A stretch of 23,502 nucleotides of DNA. It comes from a virus. Positions 423-19,739 of the stretch are shown here, in pieces. Every line of letters starts with the position of its first letter. Position 1 is the stretch's first letter. The notes under the pieces are model-generated. The model did not search any database, was not told the origin of the DNA, and saw only the letters and a list, made by a program, of their open reading frames with translations. Position numbers and translations under genes: made by a program. The stretch is taken from the IMG/VR virus record IMGVR_UViG_3300032820_000125, positions 1 through 23,502 of that record. The stretch is one strand, 5' to 3'.

Positions 423-1748
423 CTAATCCTCTAGCAACTTACCGATAAACTCATCTACTGATGGCTGCGCTATTGCCTCGTCATTGCGTTTCAAGACTTT
501 GGCGCGTCTGGCTAAGTCATCGAATAGCACCATGTTGCGGGTGCCTTCTTCGGCTGCTCGACTTCCTTGATCAAAGTATTTGATGCCGGGGATGCCATAC
601 TTATTAAGTAATTCTTCCCCAGCCGCTTCGGTTCCCCTTAAAATTGCCCAGTTGTTAAGGAAATTAGTTGTAGTTGCTTCATTGCCGATCATTGCTTTTT
701 TTGCCAATTCAATTGCTTTTTGTTGATTATTTCCGTAATCAAACGGATCAAATCCCATGTTTATTGCATCATCTACCGTCATTTCTTCAACTAAATTTTT
801 TAATTTTTTTTGCACATCTGAATTTTGTTGGTTTAACGGCTTATCCCAATCCAGCATCTTGGCTATGTCTTCATCGGGGACATCTATTTCGTAGAAATGG
901 CCTGAAAGCCCCTTTACTGATTCAACTAATTCTGGTGAAGGATCAAAGTTTTTCAGGTATGGGCCGTAAGCCTCTGAAATAGCTTGCGAGGGGTAATCGA
1001 ATCCTAGCCAATCATCAGCTTCTAGGGCTTTAAGGACTCTTTCCTGCTCTGGAGAAAAATGCCCCTCAGCAACTAAATCCATAAGCTCGTCAAATTCTGC
1101 ATCTTCTGGAATTTCTTCCAAAAATTTCCGTTTCATTTCAGCGTAAGGAACTGATTTTTGATACCCCTTTCCAACGTCTGGATTCTGTGCCACATAAGCT
1201 CCATGCCCATAGGTCTGAGCGCCTTGCCCTGTGCCTATCTTGGTGGGATCAAGTGCGTCAAATTTATGCGGGGAGCCGTGGTAGGCCACCATTGCCTCAT
1301 CGAGTAGTCCCTGACGCTGGAGCGCTGGGGCAAGCAGGACAGACGCCATATCCTCGGTTGATGTTGGGACGTAGTTTTTGCTTTTGAGCGCACGGCCAAG
1401 CAGCCCCGCACCTGTTGCCATGCCGCCAACAATCGCTGCCCCCGGCAGAAAATCCATTGCATCGGTTGCGAGTCCTACTTTTGCTAAGTCTTTGTCGGTG
1501 ATGTCATATCCGAGCGGTGAGAATAACGGCGTTTCTTCTGGTAGCTGCAACGTGGCTATATCTTCCTGCGTGTAACCTGACACTGGGCCACCTCCGGGCA
1601 CCATCGATAAAATCATTCGGGCAGCAGGGTGTGATTCTGCGAGCGGGTGATTAATGCCAAGCGTGTTTCTCGATTGCGTTGGTGCGCCCATTCTTTCCGG
1701 TTGCGAAGGAAATTTTTTCATCAGGGCGTTGAGCATGTTATTGGGCAT
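423..1748 (-). CDS. ADP-ribosyltransferase-like (ART-PolyVal type) protein in the packaging module
   Basis: 441 aa. Residues 1-150 are a low-recognition region with a glycine-rich hydrophobic stretch near 98-117 (DFLPGAAIVGGMATGAGLLG), which may touch or cross a membrane. Residues about 153-190 carry YHGSPHKFD, then a GTGQGAQTYGHGAYVA block, and near the C-terminus GIPGIKYFDQGSR followed by GTRNMVLFDD. These three blocks are, from memory, the hallmark of the ART-PolyVal ADP-ribosyltransferase-like domain found in polyvalent proteins of phages and mobile elements; H157 and Y185 would be the NAD-contacting positions. The domain has a long acidic insert (about 205-370). The ATG start overlaps the terminase stop (TAATG). 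It could be a virion-carried host-modifying enzyme or a degenerate structural protein; activity is not shown by sequence. Confidence 0.72.
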   Translation of the reverse strand: MPNNMLNALMKKFPSQPERMGAPTQSRNTLGINHPLAESHPAARMILSMVPGGGPVSGYTQEDIATLQLPEETPLFSPLGYDITDKDLAKVGLATDAMDFLPGAAIVGGMATGAGLLGRALKSKNYVPTSTEDMASVLLAPALQRQGLLDEAMVAYHGSPHKFDALDPTKIGTGQGAQTYGHGAYVAQNPDVGKGYQKSVPYAEMKRKFLEEIPEDAEFDELMDLVAEGHFSPEQERVLKALEADDWLGFDYPSQAISEAYGPYLKNFDPSPELVESVKGLSGHFYEIDVPDEDIAKMLDWDKPLNQQNSDVQKKLKNLVEEMTVDDAINMGFDPFDYGNNQQKAIELAKKAMIGNEATTTNFLNNWAILRGTEAAGEELLNKYGIPGIKYFDQGSRAAEEGTRNMVLFDDLARRAKVLKRNDEAIAQPSVDEFIGKLLED

Positions 1749-3124
1749 TAGTGATATGCCTCTTCCTTACGGCGTCGAGTGCTGGCCTTGACGAGATCGT
1801 TCATCGTTAGCGTCGATTTCCCATCGATTGTGATGATCGGATTCATCTTTTCAACCTTTGGCTTCGGTGGCTCGCGCCAAGTCCAAGCAAGGTAACGCAG
1901 CGCATCGGCAAAGTGATTCGTCCAGTCATGCACCGGCCTGTCCCGAAAACATTTGCTTGGGTCATCCCATTCGCGCCGAAACTGGCTGATGGCGTTGATA
2001 AATTCCTCTTGGTCGCGGTCAATCCAAAGCCTCGGAAATAGGTGCCGAGCGGCAAGTATGCCTTGTTGTTCGGTGTTTGTATTCTTGAGAATGGTGACAT
2101 GCTTCATTTTGTGATCGGTAACTAATTGCTCGTACACCGAACGCCCCGCTGCCGCCAACGTTCTGGCTTGCGCGTCATGCGGCAATACATGGCGCGAGTA
2201 ATTGTAATCTTTTGACGCAATCACCTCAGCGTAATGCGCCAGCGGCTGGCCGTTTGCGGAGTATGTATCGATGATCCGCACCTCGTTCGCTACGATTTGC
2301 ACAAAGAGTATGACTGTGTCGTCCGAAAATCCGATGTCCCAAACAGTTTGCACCGGCAGGTCTGGGTCGTGCCTGACCTCGCATATTCGGCCGCCAGCCC
2401 GCGCTGCTGCCAGCTCGCCACCGTAATAGCTACCGAGTATCGCCGCCTCGAAGCTGCATAAATACTCCTGCTCAAACTGGCTCGCGCCGAAGTCGCTGCC
2501 ATAAAGCGCAACGTATTCATCACGGATGCCGTCGAGTTGCTCGTCGTTAAACGCGCCAGTCGCTTTCGCATCCGATATTTCCGCGAACCAATCGTCTGAT
2601 TTCATCGCGTGATTAAACATGTCATAAGCATGATTTTTGCCCCGAGGGGTCGTAATAAACAGCGCCCAGCCATCGTTCTCCCGCATCATTGGCGAGAGGT
2701 AGCCCCAGGCGCTTGGGTTCGCCAGCGCCCATTCGCTGAAAACAATCCCTGCAACACCGGCACCGACGAGCGTATCGTACGCATCGCTGCCAATCACTTG
2801 CCAAGTCGCACCGTTAGTGAACCTGATGAACATCTCCTGCTCATTCGTGACCTCACGCAGCTCAATAGGAAACGCTTCGTCAATTCGGCGTTGGCCGCTA
2901 TGCGGATTGACCGCTGTCCAGATAGCTTTACGCGCTTGTGTGAATTGCGGCAGGCAGTGCCAGTACGTTGCGGGTCGGTCTGTGAGCGCTTGAAACGTCC
3001 ACGCCAACGCTATCTCGTCCTTGCCCCACCTCCGATGCGCTATTTCAATCGCTCGCTTCCCACCGCCGCACATATACTGATGCAGCGGCGCTTGGTAGTT
3101 CCGAATCCGGCGCTCAACGAGCAT
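1748..3124 (-). CDS. Terminase large subunit (DNA packaging ATPase-nuclease)
   Basis: 458 aa when started at the ATG at 3124, which overlaps the small-terminase stop (TAATG); a longer frame to 3196 would overlap the small subunit by over 70 bases and is less likely. It powers DNA translocation into the prohead and cuts concatemers. Visible motifs: a variant Walker A HRRWGKDE (residues 30-37), Walker B with catalytic Glu GIVFSEWA (126-133), coupling motif TTPRGKN (158-164), and the RNase H-like nuclease aspartates in VWDIGFSDD (D263) and RIIDTYS (D286), with another in the C-terminal HDWTNHFADALRY stretch. Length is typical for podovirus terminases with the RRWGKD-type Walker A. Its partner is the small subunit immediately upstream. 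Confidence 0.95.
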   Translation of the reverse strand: MLVERRIRNYQAPLHQYMCGGGKRAIEIAHRRWGKDEIALAWTFQALTDRPATYWHCLPQFTQARKAIWTAVNPHSGQRRIDEAFPIELREVTNEQEMFIRFTNGATWQVIGSDAYDTLVGAGVAGIVFSEWALANPSAWGYLSPMMRENDGWALFITTPRGKNHAYDMFNHAMKSDDWFAEISDAKATGAFNDEQLDGIRDEYVALYGSDFGASQFEQEYLCSFEAAILGSYYGGELAAARAGGRICEVRHDPDLPVQTVWDIGFSDDTVILFVQIVANEVRIIDTYSANGQPLAHYAEVIASKDYNYSRHVLPHDAQARTLAAAGRSVYEQLVTDHKMKHVTILKNTNTEQQGILAARHLFPRLWIDRDQEEFINAISQFRREWDDPSKCFRDRPVHDWTNHFADALRYLAWTWREPPKPKVEKMNPIITIDGKSTLTMNDLVKASTRRRKEEAYH

Positions 3125-3468
3125 TATTTCTCGTAGACATTCTTGATTGTCCAGACCGCATCGCCGGTGTGCTCGACCTCCTGCCGCTCGCTCCACTTCA
3201 TGCGGGTTTTAGTCCACCAAATAATAGCCGTCGTATCGCCGCCCATCGCCTTGTTAAACAGCGTCCCAGCTACCTTTGCGTTAGCTTTAGTCGCAGCCGT
3301 GTCCAGCTCCCGCCGAAAGTGTTTGCGTAAAGTCTTGTCATCGATGCCATCACGAATGACCAAGCATTGGCTTTCCTGCGGGATGCCGCAAGCGGTCATC
3401 TGCTCGACGAGCTTCCGCTCGTCATCGGTCGGTTTGAACGCCGGTTGGCCTGCTTTTTTACGCGGCAT
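3124..3468 (-). CDS. Terminase small subunit
   Basis: 114 aa, ATG start at 3468 with an AGGG stretch upstream. The N-terminal half (KPTDDERKLVEQMTACGIPQ ... IDDKTLRKHFRREL) reads as a helix-turn-helix of the terminase small subunit type, with the conserved ending of a middle helix and then GDTTAIIWWTKTRMKW, a strong signature of this family (xxxAAIFWLKxRxxW). It recognises packaging sites and stimulates the large subunit. It overlaps a 44-codon upstream frame by 11 bases and is coupled to the large subunit by TAATG. The GTAC repeat array lies about 150 bases upstream. Confidence 0.92.
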   Translation of the reverse strand: MPRKKAGQPAFKPTDDERKLVEQMTACGIPQESQCLVIRDGIDDKTLRKHFRRELDTAATKANAKVAGTLFNKAMGGDTTAIIWWTKTRMKWSERQEVEHTGDAVWTIKNVYEK

Positions 3469-3739: not shown

Positions 3740-5755
3740 TCAATTATTGCGCCGCAGCATTAACGCAGACGCCCATATATTATCCTCGATGACCCATCCT
3801 GAATTTATGGCAGCGCCAAGGTCATCTAGCTTTCTATATCCAGTGATCATTTCACCGGTTTGCAGCATCGCAATCAGACCGCGATCATACGAAGGTTTGG
3901 TATAATTTTTTGCTGTTCCGGGCGATATGCCCTCACCCTCCAGAAAATTAATCAAATCTCCCCTAATGAGATAAGGCTTATCATCTTCAATGAGCGCGCC
4001 AGACGCCCACCATGCTCGCTCGAACATTTTCTGATGCTTCGCCAATGGGCTGGCCTTTTGAGCTTTCACCGGCTCCTGACCCTCGATCAGCACCGCACTG
4101 GTCGATGGGTCACCATCCTCATCAAGCCACCCCTTGATCGGAACCGACTGCAATTCCGCAAATACCGGTGCAGCCTCCTCCGCATCCTTGCTTTTGCGCT
4201 GCACAATTTCGATAGTCGTGCCTGGGACTACCGATATCTCGATATCTAATGCCCCGCGCCATGCGGATGAGCCGCGCCCCCGATGCTGTGCCTCGCTCGA
4301 AACGCCCGTGTGATGCACGAGTATTACGCTACAACTGAACTCCTGAATCAGTGCAGAGCAGGCATCCAGCATGGTTTTGGCATCCGTCGCAGAATTTTCG
4401 TCGCCTTCGAGGAAGCGGTGCAGCGTATCAATCACGATAATCTCGGGGGCATTGGGCAATGCTCTGATCGCATCCGACGTTTTCTGGTATCCCGCTGGCG
4501 TATTCAGATCCAGGCCATGCCTTGAGAGCCACATATCCAGCTCGCTAACATTTTTATGCTGCTTCCACGCTGCGACGCGTCCTCGCAGACCGTAATGACC
4601 CTCTCCGGCCAGATAAACGACCGTGCCATGCCATACCTTATTCCCGAACCATTCAGCCACGACACCCTTACTCGCTACCGACATCACCATGTCCAATACC
4701 ATAAACGTTTTACCGCTACCGGACGGGCCATGAACCATAGCGAGCGCTTCCGATTGCAGCCAGTTTTTGATCTGCCATTTCACTGGGGCAGGTTGTTTCG
4801 AAAAAGCATCCGCCTGAACCAGCCAATCATCGACGGGCGGAAACAATAATGCGGATAAATCGCCACCCGATTTATGATAATCATTAGCATCACCTTCGAT
4901 GGGTGGCATAACAATCCGCCCGCCATGCTTCGCGCTCGCCTCGTCTGCCTTGTTGCGCCCAACACCGGATACATCGTTGTCAGCCACGATCACAATGTCC
5001 TGCGTCTGCCCGTAAGTCTCGCGCAATTGCCCGACAACAATCGGCAGATTGTTAGCCGAATACGCAACCACACAGGGTCGGCCTGATACTTCATGCACCG
5101 TCGCAGCAGTCGCATAACCTTCGGCTACAAAGATCGGCCCCTCGGTGATTTCCCCAAGTGTCCAGGAACACGCTTTCGTCGTGCCAGCCGCGTGATATCG
5201 CTTACCGACTTCGGAGATGTATTGCAGTGATTTCAGTTCGCCACCCGAATTATAAAGCGGCACGATCAAGCGACCATCACCCGTTAGCCTTGCGCCGTTC
5301 GGCGAAATGCTTTTTCGTTTCAGGTACGGATGGTCAGGGCTAGCGGCAATTGCCTCGCTCCATATTTTTTCCACTGTATTCGCTGCAATTTCTGCCTTCT
5401 TTTCTCGCGCTCGTTCGCGTGCTTCTGTCGCCTCGGCTTGCCGTCTTGTGATCGCCATATTTTCCGGGGCAGTAAGCTCGCGCCCGATGTCGGCCTTGAA
5501 AACGCAGTCGATTTGATCACGCCAGCACCCGAACCGCCCAGCTACAGGCTCATCAGGAAATATAATGTACCACCCTGAATCGTCACGCTTGCGTCCTTTG
5601 GTCGAAAAGCGATGCAACTGCCCGTCGATTTTTATAACTTCCGGCGGCTCGATACCCGCCGACGCCATCGCATCTGCCAATTGAATTTCCGGCGGATCGA
5701 CTTGTTTCGTTTCAGGAATAAATGGCCCGCCGAAAATGTCTGTAATTTTCGTCAT
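3740..5755 (-). CDS. TOPRIM primase / RepA-like AAA helicase fusion
   Basis: 671 aa replication protein. The N-terminus (about 20-90) resembles the N-terminal region of TraC-type plasmid/phage primases. A TOPRIM domain follows: catalytic Glu in GPIFVAEGYATA (E212) and the DxD-type motif in VIVADNDVSGVG (D259, D261). The C-terminal half is a RecA-fold RepA/AAA_25-type helicase: Walker A HGPSGSGKT (342-350), Walker B in EIIVIDTLHRFLEGDENSA, a sensor-like SVILVHHTG, and RGSSAWRGALD, all typical of hexameric RepA-like helicases. It would prime and unwind at the phage fork. It starts with ATG overlapping the stop of the HTH gene (ATGA), so the two are co-expressed. The GTAC array follows its stop codon immediately, which makes that array a candidate origin. 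Confidence 0.9.
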   Translation of the reverse strand: MTKITDIFGGPFIPETKQVDPPEIQLADAMASAGIEPPEVIKIDGQLHRFSTKGRKRDDSGWYIIFPDEPVAGRFGCWRDQIDCVFKADIGRELTAPENMAITRRQAEATEARERAREKKAEIAANTVEKIWSEAIAASPDHPYLKRKSISPNGARLTGDGRLIVPLYNSGGELKSLQYISEVGKRYHAAGTTKACSWTLGEITEGPIFVAEGYATAATVHEVSGRPCVVAYSANNLPIVVGQLRETYGQTQDIVIVADNDVSGVGRNKADEASAKHGGRIVMPPIEGDANDYHKSGGDLSALLFPPVDDWLVQADAFSKQPAPVKWQIKNWLQSEALAMVHGPSGSGKTFMVLDMVMSVASKGVVAEWFGNKVWHGTVVYLAGEGHYGLRGRVAAWKQHKNVSELDMWLSRHGLDLNTPAGYQKTSDAIRALPNAPEIIVIDTLHRFLEGDENSATDAKTMLDACSALIQEFSCSVILVHHTGVSSEAQHRGRGSSAWRGALDIEISVVPGTTIEIVQRKSKDAEEAAPVFAELQSVPIKGWLDEDGDPSTSAVLIEGQEPVKAQKASPLAKHQKMFERAWWASGALIEDDKPYLIRGDLINFLEGEGISPGTAKNYTKPSYDRGLIAMLQTGEMITGYRKLDDLGAAINSGWVIEDNIWASALMLRRNN

Positions 5756-5943
5756 GCTGCATCCACCTCATCGACCTGAGCCTGAGTCAAGTAATTGCTA
5801 AGCAATTCGACGGTTTCATACGTCGGTTTGCCCTGATCACGCATAAACCTATAAAGGGTCGCAGGATGAACCCCTGACTTAATCGCAACCCGCTTCAAGT
5901 TAGCATCGCCAAGCCTTTGTTTTATTTGCGAAATTGTTAACAT
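5752..5943 (-). CDS. Small Cro/repressor-like helix-turn-helix protein
   Basis: 63 aa, ATG at 5943 with GGGAG six bases upstream. Residues 15-40 (LKRVAIKSGVHPATLYRFMR) form a clear helix-turn-helix of the Cro/C1 type, followed by KPTYETVELLSNYL, the usual scaffold helix. Length fits a minimal DNA-binding regulator. It heads the leftward unit with the primase-helicase and stands divergent to the rightward early block, the classic position of an autoregulating switch protein. The intergenic dyad TGTACATGATATACA is the best candidate for its operator. Which promoter it represses is not visible from sequence. Confidence 0.85.
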   Translation of the reverse strand: MLTISQIKQRLGDANLKRVAIKSGVHPATLYRFMRDQGKPTYETVELLSNYLTQAQVDEVDAA

Positions 5944-7250: not shown

Positions 7251-7925
7251 ATGGCAATAAATTTACAAAGCACAAACACCGTATCGGCTCTTAATTTAAA
7301 ATTATTGGTCTACGGCCAAGCGGGAGCAGGCAAGACAAGCCTGATCCCCACACTTCCAAAACCAATAATCTTATCCGCAGAGGGCGGCCTGCTTTCAATC
7401 GCCGGACATGACATTCCATTCATCGAAGTCACCTCGATGGACGCGCTGCGCGAGGCATACAGCTGGTTACTTGATAGCGAGGAAGCGAAACAATTCGACA
7501 CCGTAGCCCTCGACAGCATTTCGGAAATTGCCGAGGTTTGTTTGTCTCGGGAAAAAAGTATTGCTAAAGATCCAAGGCAGGCGTATGGCGAAATGCAGAC
7601 AACGATGGCTGAATTGATCCGGTCATTCCGAGATTTGAATAAGCACGTGATGATGACCGCCAAATTGGAAAAGGCGCAGGATGAGATGGGCCGAATGCTC
7701 TATTCGCCATCTATGCCCGGAAACAAAACCGGCCAAGCGTTGCCTTATTTCTTCGACCTACTACTTGCTATGCGCGTGGAAAAAGACGAAGAAGGCGTGT
7801 CTCAACGGGCATTGATGTGCGACAGCGATGGGCTTTGGCAGGCAAAAGATAGAAGCGGCAAGCTGGATGCTTGGGAAGCACCAGATCTTGGAATCATTCT
7901 TGAAAAATTGGGAGGAGGAAAATAA
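7251..7925 (+). CDS. Sak4-like RecA-fold ATPase (single-strand annealing/recombination protein)
   Basis: 224 aa from the ATG at 7251, chosen because GAGGAAAAC lies just upstream; an earlier in-frame codon would overlap the membrane peptide. Walker A YGQAGAGKTS (21-30), an ILSAEGG strand, and Walker B FDTVALDSIS (82-91) give the minimal RecA/AAA_24 core, followed by the MTAKLEK and SMPGNKTGQALPYFFD segments typical of phage nucleotide-binding proteins related to Sak4. Sak4-type proteins promote annealing of complementary strands in phage recombination, together with an ssDNA-binding protein. The downstream DUF669-like gene is the likely partner. It is coupled to the next gene by TAATG. Confidence 0.85.
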   Translation: MAINLQSTNTVSALNLKLLVYGQAGAGKTSLIPTLPKPIILSAEGGLLSIAGHDIPFIEVTSMDALREAYSWLLDSEEAKQFDTVALDSISEIAEVCLSREKSIAKDPRQAYGEMQTTMAELIRSFRDLNKHVMMTAKLEKAQDEMGRMLYSPSMPGNKTGQALPYFFDLLLAMRVEKDEEGVSQRALMCDSDGLWQAKDRSGKLDAWEAPDLGIILEKLGGGK

Positions 7926-8313: not shown

Positions 8314-8808
8314 ATGGCATTTTTAGAACAACCTATTGAGCTGAAAGATATTCCTGCTGATGAAGATCGAGAATTTTCTCCGATCCCAGCGGGTTGGTAC
8401 ACCGCCGCAATCGCAGGCGCTGACATCAGGCAAACGAAAGCCGGAACCGGAAACTACATCGCCGTTCGCTTCGACGTGACCGGCCCCGAATATCAGGGGC
8501 GGGTCGTATGGACGAACCTCAACACCCGTAACCCGAACCCCAAAGCCGAGGAAATCGGGAGGCAGCAGCTTGGCAATATCATGCGAGCGGTTGGCTTGAC
8601 GAAACTTGAGGATACAGACCAGCTACTCGGCGGGAATCTGGCAATCAAGGTATCGGTACGCGACGACCCGACCTACGGCCCAAGCAACGAGGTCAAAGGC
8701 TATCGCGCAATCGAAGCCTCTGCGCCACCCGTAGCACCACCGGCTACCAAAACCGCCGCCAACGCTGCGTCAGCGCCGCCGTGGGCGTCGAAAAACAACG
8801 GGGCCTAG
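8314..8808 (+). CDS. DUF669-like putative ssDNA-binding protein
   Basis: 164 aa from ATG 8314, with a near-perfect AAGGAGGG ribosome-binding site eight bases upstream. The core (YTAAIAGADIRQTKAGTGNY, then IAVRFDVTGPEYQGRVVW, then NPNPKAEEIGRQQLGNIM) matches the DUF669 pattern, a beta-barrel-like domain. The C-terminus is a Pro/Ala/Thr-rich disordered tail (about residues 130-155) ending PPWASKNNGA, an organisation like that of SSB proteins, although the acidic DDDIPF tip is missing. It probably coats ssDNA for the Sak4-like annealase and the nuclease; this is inference from family company. A strong hairpin follows. Confidence 0.82.
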   Translation: MAFLEQPIELKDIPADEDREFSPIPAGWYTAAIAGADIRQTKAGTGNYIAVRFDVTGPEYQGRVVWTNLNTRNPNPKAEEIGRQQLGNIMRAVGLTKLEDTDQLLGGNLAIKVSVRDDPTYGPSNEVKGYRAIEASAPPVAPPATKTAANAASAPPWASKNNGA

Positions 8809-8818
8809 CAACCGGAGG

Positions 8819-8846
8819 GCCGGTGGGCTAACAACCCACCGGCTTT
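8819..8846 (+). terminator. GC-rich hairpin between DUF669-like and nuclease genes
   Basis: GCCGGTGGG (8819-8827) pairs perfectly with CCCACCGGC (8835-8843) around a CTAACAA loop, followed by only three T residues. This 9-bp stem may be a leaky terminator or an RNA-stability/attenuation element within the operon. It sits nine bases before the nuclease start codon, so it may also hide that gene's ribosome-binding site; no clear Shine-Dalgarno sequence is seen there. Confidence 0.6.
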
Positions 8847-8852
8847 AATCAC

Positions 8853-8872
8853 ATGGCAAAAATCCCTGAAGC
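8853..8872 (+). repeat. 20-base exact repeat, copy 2
   Basis: First codons of the nuclease gene, identical to 6324-6343 near the end of the 102-aa gene; both are read as MAKIPEA. Confidence 0.85.
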
Positions 8873-9896
8873 AATGAACACTATTGCCGCTGCGATTGAC
8901 GATTACCATGCAGCCCAACCGGACGAACCACGCCTGCACCTTGGCGCATCGTCGCTCGGCCATCCCTGCGAACGCTGGCTCTGGCTCTCGTTTCGCTGGG
9001 CCGTGCGCGAGAAATTCCCCGGTCGCATCCGGCGGTTATTCCGGCGCGGCCAAAACGAAGAATCTACAGTCGTCGCAGATTTGAAGGCGATTGGTATGGA
9101 CGTTCGGAACACTGGCGACGATCAAAAGGTTATTGATTTCGGCAAACATGTCGGCGGATCGATGGACGGCATCATTGAATCCGGTGTGATTGGCGCATCA
9201 AAAACCCGCCACGTTTTAGAAATCAAGACGCACAATAAAAAATCATTTGATGATGTTGACAAGAGAGGCGTCAGAGATTCCAAGCCGATCCACTGGGTAC
9301 AAATGCAGTTGTATATGCTTGGAGCTAAAATCGAACGGGCGCTCTACGTCGCAGTATGCAAAGACGATGATCGTATCTACACCGAGCGCGTGAAACTCGA
9401 CAAAGACGCCGCTCAAAATTTACTGGCAAAAGGCCAGCGGCTCGCAACCACCGAGCGCATACCGCCGCCGTTATCAACCGATCCAAGTTGGTATCAGTGC
9501 AAGTTCTGCCCCGCGCATAGCTTTTGTCACAAAGAACGACTCACGAAAGAAGTCAATTGCCGAACATGCGCTCACGCGACACCAGAAAATGACGGCACCT
9601 GGTCATGTGCCCGATGGGCGAATGAAAAAATTCCCGGCGACTTTCAAAAAACCGGATGCGAAAGTCATGTGCTGCATCCTGACTTGGTACCGTGGGAAAT
9701 CAAGGACAGCACCAACCCGCACGAAGCTATTTATGTGATAGACGGCAAAGACATCCGCAACGGCGAAGGCGATGCGTTTGTTTTTGCGAGCAAGGAATTG
9801 ATTGCGGGCGGTGATATGTGCGCCGACGAGAATGTTCAATTGCTGCGGGAAACCTTCGGTGCAACGATAGAGGAAAGCCATGATCACGCTGCGTGA
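8853..9896 (+). CDS. Cas4/AddB-like PD-(D/E)XK Fe-S nuclease
   Basis: 347 aa. PD-(D/E)XK exonuclease core: a conserved GHPCERWLW at 36-44, Asp in GGSMDGI (D105), the Glu-x-Lys in HVLEIKTHN (E123, K125), and the Gln motif WVQMQLYM (about Q150-Q152). Four cysteines, C39 plus C216-x2-C219-x5-C225, have exactly the spacing of the 4Fe-4S cluster of Cas4/AddB nucleases. A second set of cysteines (C236, C239, C252, C269) may bind zinc. It would resect DNA ends and generate single strands for the annealase. The start codon lies behind a hairpin and shares its first 20 bases with 6324-6343. Its end overlaps the helicase start by 17 bases. No Cas1/Cas2 is near, so this is a recombination nuclease, not CRISPR. 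Confidence 0.87.
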   Translation: MAKIPEAMNTIAAAIDDYHAAQPDEPRLHLGASSLGHPCERWLWLSFRWAVREKFPGRIRRLFRRGQNEESTVVADLKAIGMDVRNTGDDQKVIDFGKHVGGSMDGIIESGVIGASKTRHVLEIKTHNKKSFDDVDKRGVRDSKPIHWVQMQLYMLGAKIERALYVAVCKDDDRIYTERVKLDKDAAQNLLAKGQRLATTERIPPPLSTDPSWYQCKFCPAHSFCHKERLTKEVNCRTCAHATPENDGTWSCARWANEKIPGDFQKTGCESHVLHPDLVPWEIKDSTNPHEAIYVIDGKDIRNGEGDAFVFASKELIAGGDMCADENVQLLRETFGATIEESHDHAA

Positions 9897-12812: not shown

Positions 12813-12940
12813 TGGCTAAAATTATATTTGAAATAGATACCAACGATCCAATTGACCGCCAGTTGATTGATTTGATTGAACGGCTGATTCAGCTTCTTGA
12901 AAGTTCGTCGCAATTTCAGGAACCTGATCAGAGCATTTAA
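12812..12940 (+). CDS. 42-aa helical microprotein closing the rightward block
   Basis: ATG at 12812 overlaps the previous stop. The product, MAKIIFEIDTNDPIDRQLID followed by LIERLIQLLESSSQF, is predicted to be a short strand and one long amphipathic helix with leucine/isoleucine heptads, consistent with a dimerising or protein-binding peptide. Its TAA at 12938-12940 overlaps the stop of the convergent o-spanin gene, leaving no intergenic space. Real status rests on coupling, compact codon use and position; family unknown. Confidence 0.6.
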   Translation: MAKIIFEIDTNDPIDRQLIDLIERLIQLLESSSQFQEPDQSI

Positions 12941-13356
12941 TCTGTTGTTTCAGATATTTCGCTTTCGTCTTCTTTTTCTTCTTCTTCTGGGCCTGTGATT
13001 TTTTCGTAATACGAAACGATGTTCAAAATTTGCCTCAAATAGCGCTTAATATCGGACATGTTGGTGCTGAGATGTTCATAATTTTTAACGGTCAAACTAT
13101 AGTAAACGTTCGTCGGGGCTTCCCCTGCTTTCAAATCTTTGACATATTCTTCCATCACATCCGGCGTCAAAACACGCCATGACACGGGTAGCATTGTTAA
13201 TGGACTCGGTAAAATAGGCTGAAAAATTGGAGCCGGTTTTTCAACCGTCACAATAGAAACCGGCTTCACCTCTGGCACCAGCGCCTTGCCGTCAAGCAAC
13301 GCGCAACCGCTTAAATTAATCAGTGCTGCTACGATCAGGATTAGTGATTTCTGCAA
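12937..13356 (-). CDS. o-spanin (Rz1-like) outer-membrane lipoprotein
   Basis: 139 aa starting at TTG 13356; GGGAGCGG six bases upstream decides this start. Signal peptide MQKSLILIVAALINLSGC with a lipobox (LSGC, Cys18), so the mature protein is a lipid-anchored outer-membrane protein. The mature part has PAPIFQPILPSPLTMLPVSW, then VLTPDVMEEY, then NYEHLSTNMSDIKRYLRQIL and an acidic tail. This pattern (proline-rich linker, P-x-x-W-x-V-x-TP, N-x-x-x-I-x-x-Y) is, from memory, shared by outer-membrane spanins of marine phages. With the inner-membrane partner it fuses the two membranes at lysis. Its start is nested in the end of the i-spanin gene by 41 bases, the usual spanin architecture. Confidence 0.75.
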   Translation of the reverse strand: MQKSLILIVAALINLSGCALLDGKALVPEVKPVSIVTVEKPAPIFQPILPSPLTMLPVSWRVLTPDVMEEYVKDLKAGEAPTNVYYSLTVKNYEHLSTNMSDIKRYLRQILNIVSYYEKITGPEEEEKEDESEISETTD

Positions 13357-13723
13357 AATCCGCTCCCACCCGTTTAGTTGCTTTGTTGATGATAGCCTCG
13401 ATGAGTCCGGGCTTTCTTAGGCTGAGATGGTTCAAGTCGTGCTTGGCGAACTTCATTTTCAAATTACTCACTTCTTCGTTCGCTTCTCTGTTTTGCTCTT
13501 CCAACCCACGCATCTGTTCCTGCTGTTCTTTTTGGCGCTCCAGTGAGGCTAATATTTTGCGATTTTGATCTTCGATTGTATTTTCAAGCACTTGCTGATT
13601 GTTTACTGCAACCTGCAATTGAGTTGCAAACGCTACTTTTTCAGCTTCCGATTTATCGTAATACAATTTGAAAGCGCCTGAAACACCGCTCAAAGCCACA
13701 AAAAGTACAGCAACAGCCCACAT
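13316..13723 (-). CDS. i-spanin (Rz-like) inner-membrane coiled-coil protein
   Basis: 135 aa. One N-terminal membrane span (MWAVAVLFVALSGVSGAFKL) and a long periplasmic coiled coil (about residues 25-95: EKVAFATQLQVAVNNQQVLE, then NRKILASLERQKEQQEQMRG), then a globular end with KHDLNHLSLRKPGLIEAIIN and KATKRVGADF. The KPGLIExxINxATxR motif is, from memory, characteristic of Rz-like spanins in marine phages. It spans the periplasm and pairs with the o-spanin encoded in the overlapping frame. ATG at 13723 follows the holin-like stop by two bases. Confidence 0.78.
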   Translation of the reverse strand: MWAVAVLFVALSGVSGAFKLYYDKSEAEKVAFATQLQVAVNNQQVLENTIEDQNRKILASLERQKEQQEQMRGLEEQNREANEEVSNLKMKFAKHDLNHLSLRKPGLIEAIINKATKRVGADFAEITNPDRSSTD

Positions 13724-13725
13724 TT

Positions 13726-14043
13726 TTATTCGCCTTTAAACGCTTTCGAGCTATTTGAGGTTCCTGCGTACAGCCCAAACCATGCTGCACCAGCCCCAAC
13801 AATAATTGAAATCAAGCCGCTCTGCTCCAGCGAAGGCGCTTCAAGCGTCATAAACCACATCACCGAATAATAAAGCAGAAAAATGTAAACTGATAAAAAC
13901 GCTCGCGGGAAGATACGCCATGAGTCGACCGCCCGGGCTAAATATATCCATTTTTGATACGGATTTACGCTACTGTTAGATGTGGACGTATCAACAGACA
14001 GATCCAGCTCAAGTTCGATCTTCTTCTTGATTGGTTCGACCAT
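13726..14043 (-). CDS. Holin candidate, two membrane spans (105 aa)
   Basis: ATG 14043 preceded by AAGGAAC. Cytoplasmic acidic/basic N-terminus, then DSWRIFPRAFLSVYIFLLYY (span 1) and ISIIVGAGAAWFGLYAGTS (span 2), with a charged C-terminal KAFKGE. The DSWRxFPR...WFM...AAWFGLY pattern is, from memory, that of a holin/TM family in phages. Its position next to the spanin genes supports a lysis role: forming the pore or the membrane lesion that releases or activates the endolysin. Whether it, or the 53-aa protein at 17351, is the true holin is not decided by sequence. Confidence 0.72.
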   Translation of the reverse strand: MVEPIKKKIELELDLSVDTSTSNSSVNPYQKWIYLARAVDSWRIFPRAFLSVYIFLLYYSVMWFMTLEAPSLEQSGLISIIVGAGAAWFGLYAGTSNSSKAFKGE

Positions 14044-14052
14044 TTTAGTTCC

Positions 14053-14553
14053 TTACTTCTTAGACAGCGGGTTCAGCAACGCATCGCGAATCTGCTTATC
14101 GACGTCGGCTTCGAGTGTGTCGATTGCCGCATCCAGCTTCGTCATCTTCGCATCCATTCTGTTCTCAAAACTCGACAGCAACGTCCGAACGGTGTCGACC
14201 GATTCACGATTTCGGCTGTCCTGCTTGTCCAGACTCTTAAAGACGTCGGCCACGTCTGATCGGATGTCGAGCTTCAACTCGTTCAGAGACGCGCGAACAT
14301 CGACTAGCGATTCCTTGGTTTGTTCGACCAGCGATTCGATGGCCGAGTTCTGTTCCTCGAACACCGCCAGCGTCTGCTCAATTCCAGATAAGTCCGGGGC
14401 GGTGTAGGAACTTATTTTAGTTTCCATCGCAGTCCACCGCGCATAAGCTTCAAAGCCACCCCAAATCGCACCGCCAATAGCGCCGAGCAGCGGCACTAAC
14501 AGCAATAGTTTGCTGCCGGAAAGCTTTATGCCGCTGTACTCTACTTCTGCCAC
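14053..14553 (-). CDS. Membrane-anchored coiled-coil protein (166 aa)
   Basis: Starts at GTG 14553, inside the end of the upstream gene by 13 bases (coupling). One membrane span near residues 15-35 (KLLLLVPLLGAIGGAIWGGF), then a long helical region rich in heptads from about residue 50 to 160 (EQTLAVFEEQNSAIESLVEQ ... RTLLSSFENRMDAKMTKLDA). The topology would place the coil in the periplasm, similar in design to a spanin or an antiholin-like lysis regulator. I do not recognise a precise family. No ATG lies near the start, and the ribosome-binding site is weak. Confidence 0.72.
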   Translation of the reverse strand: MAEVEYSGIKLSGSKLLLLVPLLGAIGGAIWGGFEAYARWTAMETKISSYTAPDLSGIEQTLAVFEEQNSAIESLVEQTKESLVDVRASLNELKLDIRSDVADVFKSLDKQDSRNRESVDTVRTLLSSFENRMDAKMTKLDAAIDTLEADVDKQIRDALLNPLSKK

Positions 14554-16304
14554 TGTAGTTTTACCAGTTCATTCATGTCCTGATTTGCTTGGGCTGAAAA
14601 CCACATCGATGCCGGATGGTCGTGGTTCTCGCCGCCATCCATTTCAACTGGAGCATACCATTCCTGTAAATCCTGTAATTCGGTCGATTTGTAGGTGGGT
14701 GCAGACATCCGCATCACACTCAAAGCGGCACCTTGCATTGCAGCATCATAATTACGGCTTAAATGACCCATCACCCTTGTCGCTATTTTCTTGGCGATTC
14801 TCTTGGTTTTCTGTTTACGAGAAGATTTTTCAGGCTTTTCTTTTGATGTTTCAGTTTTAGCCTCGGCCTTTTTATCGGAAGACTCAGATCGTGAAGCTAC
14901 ACGAGTAGGCTCTGGTCGTTCTTCCTCTGCCCCGGCTGCTTCAGGTTCTGATTCTTCTTCTTCTGCCTCAGCCACCTCCGTTTCTGATTCTTCCTCTGCT
15001 TCAGCTACTTCCATCTCAGGCTCGGATTCAGCCTCCACCTCCGTAGATTCCGGCTCAGATTCAGCAACCTCCACCTCTGTTTCTGCTTCAGATTCCGTCA
15101 TTTCAACGACTTCCGGTTCAGATTCAGCTACCTCAACTTCGACTACTTCTGGCTCAGATTCCGTCATTTCAATTTCGACCGGCTCCGGCTCAGACACTTC
15201 AGGTACGTTCACCTCGGCCACTTCCATTTCTGGCATATCAATTTCAGGTAATTCGTCTAATATTTCGGAAAAGCTCATTTCAGTTGTTTCAGACCCGGCA
15301 AAATCATCAGGCATTCCCATGTCATCTGACATTCCCATATCTTCAAACCCTGCCAGATCGTCAAACGAGTCAAGGCTCGTCATGTCGTCAAACCCACCAC
15401 CTGTGTCGATTTCCTGAATCGTTTCAGTTTCGTAATCCACTTCAAACGAGTCTATGATTTCACCCGATTCCGTTTCCACAATCGCTATTTCGATATTGAC
15501 GTTGGATGTGTCGGGAGAACCCACAATTTCAGCCAGCGCCGGGTTTGAAAATAAATCCTCTGCGCCGATAAAATCTTCTTCAGGTTCTTCAAAAGCTATT
15601 TCAGGCTCAGGTTCCGTTATAACTTCCTCAAGAATTTCCTCAATGACATCATCCATGTCATCCTGAACGATGGTCACAATCTGTTCAGTGATGTAACTAA
15701 TGGCGTTGTAGCCCGTCGTGAGCCACGGATCGGTGAACTGTGGGCCATATAGCCCTGTCGGATAACCCGCATCCTGACCATACAATTCCAACAACATGGA
15801 CAACTCAACCCATGAGTTAGAAACGACGGTCTGCTCGAACTCATATTCTCGAAGTCCACTGTAGTCCAGCACAAATTCATGCTCGTATTTTTCAAGCACT
15901 TCTTCGTTCTCGGTCAGCGTCAACGTCAAATTAAAATTATCCTGACAATCCACACCAACGCCAGTTTGGTCACATGTTGGCAAAACCGCATTACTGGAAT
16001 GCGAGGTCGTCGAAACGCCGTATGCGAGATCGAACCCACGATTTATTTCTTCAGTGGTCATGGTTTCTGTCAAATCGACAGTTGTGCTATATGTTCCTCC
16101 GGCAGCACCCGTACACGCTTCGCCAGGACTACAATACCCCGTGTTTCCAGTCATCGTCGCATCGCCGCTGGTCGTAAACTCAACAAGTCCCGGCAATAAA
16201 TTGTCTGAAATAGTCGGCGTTAGAACTTGAGTCGTGACTTCTTCGATCACTTCTTCAGCCCGAGCAATGAAGCTAATTAGCAGAAGTAAAATGCTAATCC
16301 TCAT
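14541..16304 (-). CDS. Secreted protein with long acidic SEPE-type repeat and basic C-terminal helix
   Basis: 587 aa from ATG 16304; a TTG at 16316 is also in frame but has no better ribosome site. Signal peptide MRISILLLLISFIARA with cleavage after ARA. The mature N-terminal domain (to about 215) has four cysteines (CSPGEAC; CDQTGVGVDC) likely in disulfides. From about 220 to 470 it is almost purely acidic low complexity, with repeated ESEPEVVEVEVAESEPE-like units and MDDDG-type Asp stretches. It then switches to a strongly basic segment (SSRKQKTKRIAKKIATRVMG) and a short globular end. Similar secreted acidic proteins occur, from memory, in lysis regions of marine phages. Function is unknown; envelope disruption or metal binding are guesses. 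Confidence 0.7.
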   Translation of the reverse strand: MRISILLLLISFIARAEEVIEEVTTQVLTPTISDNLLPGLVEFTTSGDATMTGNTGYCSPGEACTGAAGGTYSTTVDLTETMTTEEINRGFDLAYGVSTTSHSSNAVLPTCDQTGVGVDCQDNFNLTLTLTENEEVLEKYEHEFVLDYSGLREYEFEQTVVSNSWVELSMLLELYGQDAGYPTGLYGPQFTDPWLTTGYNAISYITEQIVTIVQDDMDDVIEEILEEVITEPEPEIAFEEPEEDFIGAEDLFSNPALAEIVGSPDTSNVNIEIAIVETESGEIIDSFEVDYETETIQEIDTGGGFDDMTSLDSFDDLAGFEDMGMSDDMGMPDDFAGSETTEMSFSEILDELPEIDMPEMEVAEVNVPEVSEPEPVEIEMTESEPEVVEVEVAESEPEVVEMTESEAETEVEVAESEPESTEVEAESEPEMEVAEAEEESETEVAEAEEEESEPEAAGAEEERPEPTRVASRSESSDKKAEAKTETSKEKPEKSSRKQKTKRIAKKIATRVMGHLSRNYDAAMQGAALSVMRMSAPTYKSTELQDLQEWYAPVEMDGGENHDHPASMWFSAQANQDMNELVKLQWQK

Positions 16305-16815
16305 CGGGATCTTCAAACTTTACGTTGCCGTGGTCGTCCCTTGACCATTCTTTTTTGTCGATTCCAGCGCGTTTTTTATACTCCCGCTCGTCAGGACGGC
16401 GCTCCGCGTTTGTTTGCCACAGCGCAAGCGCTTCTTCGCCAATCTTTCCTTCGTAAGGGCAGGGCGTTCCCGCCATCTCCATAGCCTCGAACACACGCTT
16501 ATCCTGACAAAGAAGGCTGACGCCAGCGACTTTCATCCCCATAAAATAGAGACTGCGAGCGAGTTTTATGCGCTCACAATTTTTGTCTCTGACCGTCGTG
16601 CCAGCGGCGAATCCGAAAATCTGTGTCTGGACTGCTGCGGAAGCGGGGTAACTGCAAACGTCCTGATTATTCAGGACTATATTTGGGGCGCTTGCCGTGG
16701 GCGGCGTTTTATCGACCGTGGTCGTACCTGTCACTGTAGAAGTGATGGTATTCGTACTTTGACCAAACGCAAATGACGAAGCCACGACTAACAGAATCGC
16801 AATGAGCGCACGCAT
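16294..16815 (-). CDS. Secreted cysteine-containing protein of the lysis region (173 aa)
   Basis: ATG 16815, one base after the endolysin stop. Signal peptide MRALIAILLVVASSFAFGQ, then a Thr-rich linker (STNTITSTVTGTTTVDKTPP), then a domain with NNQDVCSYPASAAVQTQIFG, DKNCERIKLARSLYFMGMKV, GVSLLCQDKRVFEAMEMAGT and CPYEGKIGEEALALW. The PTASAPNI...NQDxC...FG...RDxNCExxKLAR and LCQDxRVFEAMEMAGTPCPY blocks are a recurring family in marine phages from memory, with four conserved cysteines. It is probably a periplasmic or virion-associated protein; a precise role is not known. It is coupled to the acidic secreted protein by an 11-base overlap. Confidence 0.72.
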   Translation of the reverse strand: MRALIAILLVVASSFAFGQSTNTITSTVTGTTTVDKTPPTASAPNIVLNNQDVCSYPASAAVQTQIFGFAAGTTVRDKNCERIKLARSLYFMGMKVAGVSLLCQDKRVFEAMEMAGTPCPYEGKIGEEALALWQTNAERRPDEREYKKRAGIDKKEWSRDDHGNVKFEDPDED

Positions 16816-16816
16816 T

Positions 16817-17287
16817 TTACAAGTCGATAAGATTTTGCGCGATACGACGGCTCCAACCCTTCCCGAAATTATCAAACGTTCTTAGATCGCAAGCCGCCTT
16901 TAATCGCAATCCGTTAAAAATGGCTACAATTTTGTAAGCATTTAATTTCTGCGCGGCGTTAATAGTTTGCGGTCCAATTATGCCGTCATCAGGGCATTTG
17001 AGCGCCCGCTGTAACCACTTTGTTGCTTGTTTGACGCCAGCATTAACCGCTGCATCAAACAAACTCAATCCAATAGGGCTTGGCAATTCATCGCCTCTTA
17101 CCCGATCCCAATAATCTTCCTTATAAATTGATTTAGCGCCGTCAAGCGTTAATTTCTTGATGTCTACATCAGGGTATGACCGCTTGGAGACGCCGTATTT
17201 TGTTTCGCCTCCAGGATCAGCGGGATTATCGACGTATCCCCCCTCATGGCCGATAACAATCATAAATGCGTGATCAAAATTACTCAT
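16817..17287 (-). CDS. Endolysin, GH108-type N-acetylmuramidase
   Basis: 156 aa from ATG 17287; in-frame TTG codons at 17320 and 17347 would extend it, but the family normally starts at this Met. Catalytic motif GHEGGYVDNPADPGGETKYG with the general acid Glu15, followed by KEDYWDRVRGDELPSPIGLS and FDAAVNAGVKQATKWLQRAL; the second part carries the PG_binding_3-like DGIIGPQTINA. No signal peptide, so it needs a holin. It hydrolyses the glycan backbone of peptidoglycan. Upstream is a non-coding gap that contains the parS match; the ribosome-binding site is weak, so initiation may depend on coupling to the holin-like gene, which ends at 17351. Confidence 0.92.
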   Translation of the reverse strand: MSNFDHAFMIVIGHEGGYVDNPADPGGETKYGVSKRSYPDVDIKKLTLDGAKSIYKEDYWDRVRGDELPSPIGLSLFDAAVNAGVKQATKWLQRALKCPDDGIIGPQTINAAQKLNAYKIVAIFNGLRLKAACDLRTFDNFGKGWSRRIAQNLIDL

Positions 17288-17320
17288 ATCAATAGCGAAT
17301 ACGGAAGGATGTAAATTCAA

Positions 17321-17336
17321 TGTTCCACGTGAAACA
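17321..17336. other. parS: parS-like centromere site (exact match to the chromosomal ParB-binding consensus)
   Basis: TGTTCCACGTGAAACA matches TGTTNCACGTGAAACA, the widely conserved ParB/Spo0J binding site of bacterial chromosomes, at every fixed position; the other strand reads TGTTTCACGTGGAACA, the other common natural form. It is in the short gap between the holin-like gene and the endolysin start, outside coding sequence if the ATG at 17287 is used. It also encodes the little frame MFHVEH known from other parS sites. No parA or parB gene is in the window. Confidence 0.85.
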
Positions 17337-17350
17337 TGCTTTCTCAATTA

Positions 17351-17512
17351 CTATATCTTGCCTTTCTCTTTCAAAACAAAACCAGCAGCACCGCCGAAAA
17401 TTCCGAGCATGACTAACCAGGATTGGCCTGAAATGATGCCCAATCCCATTACAATTGCACCTGCTGCGGCATAACTCGACGGTTCTTTAAATCGATCAAT
17501 AATCCAGTTCAT
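17351..17512 (-). CDS. 53-aa two-span membrane protein, holin-like
   Basis: ATG 17512 with GAGG about eleven bases upstream. The product begins MNWIIDRFKEPSSYAAAGAI and continues VMGLGIISGQSWLVMLGIF and GGAAGFVLKEKGKI. Two short hydrophobic spans separated by a small polar turn (SGQS) and a positively charged tail: the topology of small class II holins. The (M)NW(I)xxRLKEPSTWAG-like start is, from memory, typical of small phage holins beside endolysins. It lies just before the endolysin gene, separated by the parS-containing gap. A second holin candidate is at 13726, so one may act as holin and the other as antiholin or pinholin. Confidence 0.72.
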   Translation of the reverse strand: MNWIIDRFKEPSSYAAAGAIVMGLGIISGQSWLVMLGIFGGAAGFVLKEKGKI

Positions 17513-17571: not shown

Positions 17572-17775
17572 TCAGGCATCGGCCTCGTCTATCGTGATTT
17601 CTCCGTCATCGAGAAGCTCTTGAATCCATTCGTAATGAGCGTTTCCGGTATCTATCGGAACCCCATATTTCACGCTGTCATAGACCACCTCGATGATGCA
17701 CGGGTCTGAGGTGCCGAGCGTATTGACATACTTCAGGGACGTTGCGTTTTTAATTTTGACTTTGTTTAAACCCAT
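17572..17775 (-). CDS. Small protein following the tail fibre (67 aa)
   Basis: ATG 17775 overlaps the tail fibre stop (TAATG), so it is translationally coupled; the longer in-frame extension is rejected. The product has LNKVKIKNATSLKYVNTLGT, then IIEVVYDSVKYGVPIDTGNA, then HYEWIQELLDDGEITIDEAD. The C-terminal NxHYxxIQxxxxxGxxIxEAD motif is, from memory, a recurring ending of phage proteins encoded beside tail fibres. It may be a tail fibre assembly factor or a minor tail component; that is inference from position. Confidence 0.72.
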   Translation of the reverse strand: MGLNKVKIKNATSLKYVNTLGTSDPCIIEVVYDSVKYGVPIDTGNAHYEWIQELLDDGEITIDEADA

Positions 17776-19739
17776 TATGATAGCTCCGCATCTGCTGTTG
17801 CGCCGTCGTACCAAATTGCGTATGACCCGCCGGAATTGTAAACGCCCGCTGAGTCAACATTGGTTTGCTGCTGCGTACCGGCCACGCCCGTACACGTAGG
17901 AGCGGCTCGCATCTGAACCTGAAACTGCCAGTTACTATAATTTACACCACCCGTATTCGATGACCCGTACAGGATAGCGTTTGAGCTTTCGCGATCTGCG
18001 AAATAACGACGACAACGCAATAGATTCTCGTTCGGTTTTTCATACTGAAATGCACTTGCCGTACTACCAATTTCCAACTGGACTCCCGTCATATGAAAAT
18101 TATTCGAGGTGTTATCTAGCGCATCAACTTGTCCAACATAGGAATTGGCAGCCGTATAGTCGGCCCATGAAGTAGCAAGCGTTCCTGATGTGTAATTCGT
18201 TCCTGCCACCAGCACAAACTGAACGTAAAGACTTGTCGCATTATTATTGTCAAATGGATCGCCAGTACTCGTATCTCCAGCGAAGGTAAGCGTTTTGTAC
18301 TCCCACGTATTGGTTGAACTTACCGTGTAGGCTTGCGAAATATGCCGATTATTATCGTTATCGTGCAGGGATACTATATACGTCCCTGTTTTTGTCGTGT
18401 TCACCCAGAAGGAAAGGGTGACTGCCTTGGCTTGCGCGTCACCTTTGTTAAAAGCCTGTAAATCTTGCCCTTCAAAAATTTGCGCTATGTAAATCACATC
18501 CGCCGCATCCACTGTCCCGGATGCGGTTGTGCAGTCCAGTTTCAACGAAGCGTAAAACCCATCGGGGCTTTCGGTTGCTTTCGTCATAGTAACTACTGCG
18601 TTTGGAGCACCCGATTCTCCATATTGCCATCTGTCCTGAACGTGATATCCGGTATCGGCATTGCCAATACCAGCTACTGAAGTTGCGCGCTGACAAATTT
18701 GCATATCGCCGTTGTAAATAAAATTCCTAGACCCGCCAATCTGACCTGTATTTAGTCCCGTGACACCCGAAATGCCGCCAGTGACGGCCAAATCCCCCGC
18801 CATTGTCACGTTGGTAGTTCCGGTCGGAATGCCCAGCACTGTCGCGTCAGCATCATTAACAAGAGTTACATCGTTGGTCGAGCCTTGCCCAGTTAATATC
18901 GCACCAAGCACACTTGTATAACCTAAAGCAGCATTATCGCCTGCTGATGTGTCGCCATCAGGCTCGAAAGTTGCAGCAGTAGCGACGGCGGTAACATCGA
19001 CTGAGGCAAGCACTGAGCTTCCTGCCACGTTCAAGCCCGCAGCACCAACGAGCTTTAAGTCATCATCGCTTTCATCCCACAGCATGTAAGCACCGGAGGT
19101 GGCTCCAAAGAATTTAACGTCATAACCAGTATCGTTAACCCCCGTGATTATTGTTCCATTGAATTGTGAATTACCGTCTACAGTCAGGCTCGACACGATG
19201 AGCGGATCGGTGCCGCTAATTTGCACCTGCATGACTTGAACAGTGCTGGTAGTGTTCAGGATGCCCATGAACATCTTGCTGGCGGCGTGCTGTCCCGCTG
19301 TCAGCGCTGCACCATTGTCTTGCAGGGCAATTGCGCTCAGGCCGGATATGGCTACGGTTGTCGCGCCTGTATTGGTGCTGCCGCTTGCCATCCACACAAA
19401 GCGCTGTCCCGCCGCGTAAGCCGTTATCGCAGGCGAGGGCGACAAGGTTATAGCGTCAGCTCCTCCGCCCGCTGTACCGCACCATATGAACGCCTCAGCC
19501 TGTGCCTGGCCTAGTGACAGGCTGTCTGTGGCAGCGGTGCCGACTTTCATGGCTGTAAACTTGTGCGTAGCAAGCGGAATATCGCCCGTAACGACGCTTT
19601 GGCCGTCTACGGCAATGGATTGCGTCAACGCTGTGGCGATGTCGGAATTGTTAGCATCGACCTCGTTCGAGGAAATAACCGTCCCGCTCACGAAATTCGG
19701 GTATGGGTTTGAGTATGTGCCTGAGCCGTTTCTAGCCAT
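17775..19739 (-). CDS. Tail fibre / receptor-binding protein
   Basis: 654 aa, starts MARNGSGTYSNPYPNFVSGT and continues VISSNEVDANNSDIATALTQ, the standard N-terminus of phage tail fibres that attach to the baseplate or tail hub. Then a beta-rich repetitive shaft (about 50-335; VDGNSQFNGTIITGVND, LAVTGGISGVTGLNTG), low in charged residues and high in Thr/Gly/Ala, as expected for trimeric beta structure. From about 338 a carbohydrate-binding-like domain begins with RNFIYNGDMQICQRATS and includes DRWQYGESGAPN and LSFWVNTTKTGTY; the NFIxNGDMxIxQR motif recurs in marine phage tail fibres from memory. The end (LRCRRYFADRESSN region) may be the host-specific tip. It would bind the surface receptor of the host. 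Confidence 0.87.
   Translation of the reverse strand: MARNGSGTYSNPYPNFVSGTVISSNEVDANNSDIATALTQSIAVDGQSVVTGDIPLATHKFTAMKVGTAATDSLSLGQAQAEAFIWCGTAGGGADAITLSPSPAITAYAAGQRFVWMASGSTNTGATTVAISGLSAIALQDNGAALTAGQHAASKMFMGILNTTSTVQVMQVQISGTDPLIVSSLTVDGNSQFNGTIITGVNDTGYDVKFFGATSGAYMLWDESDDDLKLVGAAGLNVAGSSVLASVDVTAVATAATFEPDGDTSAGDNAALGYTSVLGAILTGQGSTNDVTLVNDADATVLGIPTGTTNVTMAGDLAVTGGISGVTGLNTGQIGGSRNFIYNGDMQICQRATSVAGIGNADTGYHVQDRWQYGESGAPNAVVTMTKATESPDGFYASLKLDCTTASGTVDAADVIYIAQIFEGQDLQAFNKGDAQAKAVTLSFWVNTTKTGTYIVSLHDNDNNRHISQAYTVSSTNTWEYKTLTFAGDTSTGDPFDNNNATSLYVQFVLVAGTNYTSGTLATSWADYTAANSYVGQVDALDNTSNNFHMTGVQLEIGSTASAFQYEKPNENLLRCRRYFADRESSNAILYGSSNTGGVNYSNWQFQVQMRAAPTCTGVAGTQQQTNVDSAGVYNSGGSYAIWYDGATADAELS

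Follow-up and report, generated by a model that had tools for sequence, protein, structure and literature searches.

Organisation of the lysis region

The DNA analysed here (the window) comprises 23,502 bases, the same bases as the virus record from which it was taken. On the minus strand, a tail fibre gene (17775..19739; phrog_4492, 3.2e-49) located upstream of the lysis genes is followed by a 67-aa ORF, an ORF for a 53-aa small membrane protein with two helices (17351..17512), a spacer of roughly 64 nt (17288..17350) and a gene for an endolysin of the GH108 muramidase type (16817..17287; PF05838, 1e-26; phrog_315 endolysin, 2.6e-54). The spacer contains a sequence of the parS type, the binding site of the chromosome segregation protein ParB. 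The endolysin gene is followed by two unassigned ORFs, then by an ORF of 166 aa, the gene for a lysis-region membrane protein of 105 aa (13726..14043) and genes for two Rz-like spanins, the inner membrane component at 13316..13723 (phrog_739, 1.9e-9) and its overlapping partner at 12937..13356 (phrog_812, 4.6e-11), all on the minus strand. From this order of tail fibre, membrane ORF, endolysin and spanins it follows that the parS-type site is located within the lysis cassette.

An earlier reading of the sequence alone (the sequence-only reading) had placed the site between a holin-like gene and the endolysin gene. The gap and the endolysin were found as described, but the name 'holin' is a guess, because the 53-aa ORF matched nothing in Pfam or PHROG and is holin-like by position and hydrophobicity only. 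An alternative TTG start of the endolysin gene at 17347 would include the site in frame, read as HVSRGT; the ATG at 17287 aligns with the start of a homologous endolysin and is the likely start.

Two further ORFs of the window drew attention. A 591-aa ORF in the lysis region (14541-16316) contains long acidic repeats rich in Glu, Ser and Val and had no Pfam or PHROG match. In a 441-aa ORF (423-1748) the sequence AYHGSPHKFD resembles, by eye, ADP-ribosyltransferase-like phage proteins; this ORF had no Pfam match.

The parS-type site

The site is a single copy of TGTTCCACGTGAAACA at 17321-17336, read on the plus strand and annotated without strand, with no mismatch to TGTTNCACGTGAAACA and one mismatch on the opposite strand. 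It equals the consensus of chromosomal ParABS parS sites, TGTTTCACGTGAAACA (Livny et al. 2007, cited in PMC10197239), at every fixed position, which bears out the exact match reported by the sequence-only reading. The site also fits the 16-bp pattern TGTTNCACGTGNAACA of chromosome-type parS, is nearly palindromic and has the preferred flanks A and T, extending it to the 18-mer ATGTTCCACGTGAAACAT at 17320-17337. The same pair of flanks was present in 45 of the 134 viral sites that were retrieved with the bare 16-mer. Markov models of order 0-3 gave an expectation of 1.5e-5 to 2.3e-5 matches in the window to the four parS variants TGTT[CT]CACGTG[AG]AACA, in agreement with the earlier estimate of well below once per ten thousand windows.

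A scan of the rest of the record, which is incomplete, revealed neither a second site with up to three mismatches nor a protein with a ParB_N domain, so that the reported absence of a parB gene was upheld at this level. The window site thus differs from chromosomal parS in that it is located on a phage, is single and has no parB nearby.

Other regulatory elements were considered for the same position. No promoter-like or terminator-like element was found at the site itself. An RNA hairpin or attenuator was rejected, since the predicted fold was weaker than that of shuffled sequences (z = +2.0) and no terminator-like stem covered the site; the spacer as a whole showed no terminator-like hairpin or unusual RNA fold either. 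CtrA boxes, as another link to the cell cycle, were rejected as well, as the window contains a single CtrA-box-like match (11441), no more than expected by chance.

The 16-mer could also be the operator of a phage protein unrelated to ParB, for instance of the 63-aa HTH regulator encoded at 5752-5943. Such a small HTH protein is indeed present in the record. However, operators normally recur and here there is one site only, and the sequence is that of the chromosomal parS of many bacterial phyla and is common to unrelated phages. We regard an operator function as extremely improbable.

Identity of the phage and its probable host

Among named phages, the large terminase (1748..3196, minus strand) gave its top matches with Bradyrhizobium, Rhizobium and Acetobacter phages, at 50-53% identity. 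Its nearest relatives in bacterial genomes were found in Thalassospira, Acetobacter (two species), Inquilinus and Rhodomicrobium, all of which are alphaproteobacteria. The host is therefore probably an alphaproteobacterium, an assignment drawn solely from terminases that are about 50% identical. Four of these five bacterial genomes contained TGTTTCACGTGRAACA sites, and in each of the four a chromosomal ParB gene was present within a few kb of one of them. The Inquilinus chromosome carries, near parB, the same parS variant as the window.

Related phage genomes measure approximately 36 kb, as compared to 23.5 kb for the record, and roughly a third of this phage genome is therefore missing. A tyrosine integrase (PF00589) was found neither in the incomplete record nor in the relatives G007, G012 and G016. 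Two relatives, G012 (8766-8963) and G013 (7296-7493), encode a 224-aa ORF with a ParB_N fold near the small terminase gene; this ORF is absent from the window, and G012 and G013 contain no parS.

Distribution of the site among relatives

Relatives were collected with the terminase and with the conserved N-terminus of the tail fibre as queries. The nearest relative with lysis genes, G007, has a terminase that is 92% identical, a small membrane protein that is 77% identical and an endolysin that is 60% identical to those of the window. It has kept the order of tail, membrane protein and endolysin, with two extra small ORFs in between, and none of its 32.6 kb matches parS. The distance between the small membrane gene and the endolysin gene is about 460 nt in G007 and in a second relative (L379), versus 64 in the window. 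One of the 50 terminase-selected relatives contained a 14-mer match, GTTTCACGTGAAAC flanked by C and G (G049), and one of the 34 tail-selected relatives contained an exact 16-mer at a different place, with an integrase gene 0.6 kb away (G101). Both sets pooled (1.86 Mb) thus yielded one further exact TGTTNCACGTGNAACA, against 0.007 expected. Among 80 loci with homologues of the 53-aa gene, no site was found at up to one mismatch. The site is sporadic in this lineage, and the window record is the only one of its lineage that has it.

These results bear first of all on the proposal that the site serves the timing of lysis, in which ParB bound between the small membrane gene and the endolysin gene would spread and repress the endolysin until late in infection. 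The position of the site, exactly in the spacer upstream of the endolysin gene, speaks for this, as does the finding that a peptidoglycan hydrolase gene also bears a site in phi29 and in Bacillus phage BSP11. However, the site is not kept at the junction in G007 or in other relatives, and its sporadic occurrence counts against a fixed role in lysis timing. In other phages parS is found in connector, portal, baseplate and HTH genes and in terminal repeats, and the window site itself is without a promoter-like or terminator-like element and without a stable RNA fold. A lysis-timing role, which the sequence-only reading had found attractive, is therefore not borne out; we consider it highly unlikely, and the least favoured of the explanations that involve ParB. 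The same reading had named absence of the site from close relatives with otherwise conserved gene order as evidence against its proposal. This was found in part: G007, with the same order of tail, holin and endolysin, is without parS. Conservation of the site is not demonstrable here, because neither G007 nor the 80 small-membrane-gene loci contain it.

The same data can be read as passive capture or coincidence: the 16-mer would then be without function, either a product of chance or a piece of host DNA brought in at the time the small membrane and endolysin genes became neighbours. In favour of this, the site is unique to this record within its lineage, and the longer distance between the two genes in G007 and L379 indicates that the junction in the window may be recent. 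Against it stands the chance expectation of 2e-5 per window. Moreover, the population-wide excess over control 16-mers described below implies that, among phage parS sites, non-random ones far outnumber random ones. Passive capture is thus unlikely.

Excess of parS in phage DNA

In IMG/VR, TGTTCCACGTGAAACA was present in at least 120 contigs and the 18-mer in at least 120, versus one contig for the reversed 16-mer and four for an arm-swapped control that keeps CACGTG; host DNA may be present in these contigs, as it may in some draft 'Listeria phage LM' records. Among 50,697 records of named phages, padded 16-mer queries of three parS variants matched 147, 286 and 58 records, counts that are inflated by near-duplicate genomes, and two control queries matched 0 and 0. 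Individual BLAST matches in this set are weak (E = 8) and the argument lies in the contrast with the controls. Taken as such, the counts put the enrichment of exact parS 16-mers over control 16-mers in phage DNA at roughly 30- to 100-fold or more. By similarity of their flanks the parS loci fell into 148 independent clusters; the excess therefore does not stem from one expanded family. Because this background of parS in phages is far above chance, the window 16-mer is, judged by its sequence, very probably a genuine ParB site of the chromosome type. The sequence-only reading had called it the most unusual signal, which is true of the window but not of phages at large, where parS recurs.

With a simple longest-ORF gene model, 32 of 141 viral sites were intergenic, in contigs that are about 95% coding. 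Sites inside long ORFs occurred in all three frames, mostly in one (37, 12 and 2). The constraint is therefore on the DNA and not on one peptide. Across other phages the sites were located in connector, portal, baseplate, HTH, terminal-repeat and hypothetical regions.

The most prominent hosts of the parS-matching named phages were Bacillus, Listeria, Pseudomonas, Arthrobacter, Microbacterium, Gordonia and Lactobacillus, with Stenotrophomonas, Vibrio cholerae and others in addition; most of these phages infect hosts that possess ParB. Escherichia was outside all three top-ten host lists and accounts for at most 3, 6 and 2 records, while T4-like Escherichia phages alone contribute 661 records to the named set. 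To our knowledge E. coli has no ParABS system. An exception to the host pattern is formed by Klebsiella jumbo phages (RaK2, K64-1 and others), which contain an exact TGTTCCACGTGGAACA, in some of them in a baseplate gene. Klebsiella is not known to possess ParABS either, and this handful of matches may be one inherited coincidence.

In the open-access full-text literature, which leaves most subscription papers outside its scope, we found no survey of parS in phage genomes. A 2025 survey (PMC12704722) appears to deal with phage ParB-fold proteins and not with orphan parS sites.

Individual cases of parS in other phages

Between the Gordonia phage Orchid and the Gordonia phages Damp and Hello the flanks are barely alignable, with the 16-mer invariant at a comparable place. 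The invariant parS lies within a longer palindrome (L367, L368 and L369, approximately 1490-1525) with arms TAGGCGCA..TGCGCCTA versus TAGGGCAG..CTGCCCTA that differ between the phages yet remain complementary, which suggests that the flanks are under some constraint as well. With the neighbouring genes as queries, a homology search yielded 25 records at a query coverage of 76% or more and another 30 that are more distant; the number of Gordonia records with parS is also 25, a similarity in number only.

A family of podovirus-like contigs is represented by viral contig L106 and a cluster of 44 related viral-contig sites, in which parS is recurrent at differing positions. Its portal protein is related to those of Pelagibacter phages HTVC027P and HTVC023P, Roseobacter CRP-901 and Caulobacter phages. 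L106 also encodes a 73% identical homologue of the 105-aa membrane protein of the window and has its exact parS at a different place. Abalone shriveling syndrome-associated virus and a Xenohaliotis phage (L370 and L371), both associated with a Rickettsiales-type symbiont, contain one and three copies of ATGTTCCACGTGGAACAT, respectively.

Several contigs contain clustered sites. One 116-kb viral contig (L146, L302 and L323) has no fewer than 16 exact parS, with 12 concentrated in a 5-kb stretch; some are located at or just upstream of start codons (MFHVEH/MFHVKH), and no ParB_N domain is encoded. Other contigs contain seven (L290), eight (L360) and five (L321) copies.

The sites could act as a decoy: many phage genome copies, each with a parS, would titrate host ParB away from the chromosome, and the resulting block of segregation, division or SMC loading in the host would favour the phage. 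Sites do occur in virulent phages that reach many genome copies, and some contigs have 7 to 16 or more of them; a ParB of the phage itself is absent from the window record and from 49 of the 50 parS-bearing viral contigs tested for ParB_N. The window phage, however, has a single site per genome, and tolerance of ParB loss in many species counts against the decoy. In P. aeruginosa, too, ParB loss is described as not lethal (PMC5521831). For the window we consider a decoy unlikely, though less so than the other alternatives discussed.

In named phages of the phiPsa374 group and in Vibrio phage phi 3, the site is part of a terminal repeat (direct or left); such a parS is thus present twice, and might be among the first or the last DNA to enter the cell. 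Sites in the terminal repeats of some phages would fit a role in condensation, in which ParB at parS loads host SMC/condensin, which compacts or organises the phage DNA for replication or packaging. That ParB-parS loads SMC in bacteria (PMC10197239, PMC9564211) adds to this. However, condensation predicts conservation within lineages, which was not seen in the lineage of the window, and as the benefit of the site studied here it is very unlikely.

Comparison with known systems

The closest parallel is phi29, which contains four exact copies of the window 16-mer and whose chromosome is reported to be trapped in spores by Spo0J, the ParB of B. subtilis (Meijer et al. 2005, as summarised in PMC9437464). 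Both are tailed phages that share the identical 16-mer, and the window record, like phi29, combines a phage parS with the absence of a ParB of its own. They differ in that phi29 has four sites, one of them inside the peptidoglycan hydrolase gene, whereas the window has one, in a spacer; this is one site in 23.5 kb, with about a third of the genome missing. The host of phi29 sporulates and a role of Spo0J has been reported, whereas the terminase relatives of the window phage are found in non-sporulating alphaproteobacteria, its presumed hosts. Spore entrapment would thus not apply.

Partition systems of phage-plasmids, such as P1 ParABS, supply ParA and ParB from genes of their own and act on parS sequences unrelated to the one described here. 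They share with the window a centromere site on a phage genome, and differ in their own ParA and ParB, as no ParB_N protein is encoded in the incomplete window record. Alphaproteobacterial phages have also been described to use sites of host cell-cycle regulators, namely CtrA boxes in lytic deferment (PMC9437464). The likeness lies in a phage-borne DNA site for a host cell-cycle protein and in the probable alphaproteobacterial host; the protein is another one, and CtrA-box-like matches in the window are at chance level.

Interpretation

Host ParB as the likely binder, as put forward in the sequence-only reading, agrees with the presence of parB-linked copies of the same parS in the predicted hosts, and phi29 provides a precedent. 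We moderately favour, as the best reading overall, a loading site for host ParB from which the phage benefits by placement or retention of its DNA. Such a loading site accounts for the exact consensus, the A..T extension and the absence of a phage parB, and also for the recurrence of parS in unrelated phages of ParB-bearing hosts at shifting genomic positions.

According to this reading, host ParB, a CTP-dependent DNA clamp, would load at the phage parS and slide onto the adjoining phage DNA, by which the phage genome would become linked to the ParA, SMC or polar machinery of the host. During slow or stalled infection, in carrier or starved cells, the phage DNA could then be placed and retained with the nucleoid and be inherited rather than lost: the principle of phi29 and Spo0J, minus the spore. 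As the probable hosts do not sporulate and have parB-linked parS, the benefit is probably tethering or partition, which is favoured because it follows the phi29 principle and is compatible with any genomic position. That segregation or positioning is the actual benefit of the site is held more tentatively, at slightly less than even odds, than the identity of the 16-mer as a ParB site.

Beyond this phage, gain of host-type parS could be a widespread, convergent and largely unrecognised phage strategy, also outside sporulating hosts, with the window as one alphaproteobacterial instance; we consider the case for this evenly balanced. Single or clustered parS sites would then be gained and lost by phages, virulent as well as temperate, whose hosts are alphaproteobacteria, pseudomonads, actinobacteria and Listeria. 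Through these sites host ParB, with ParA, SMC or polar anchors, would position, compact or retain the phage DNA.

If host ParB does load on such phages, a motif simple enough to be spotted by eye would predict which phages plug into the segregation machinery of their host. Direct tests would become possible of carrier-state inheritance, of where phage DNA is placed in the cell and of whether the phage interferes with segregation in the host, and the case of spore entrapment in phi29 would be extended to non-sporulating hosts. The recurrence of parS in phages suggests that the chromosome-handling machinery of the host has been borrowed repeatedly.
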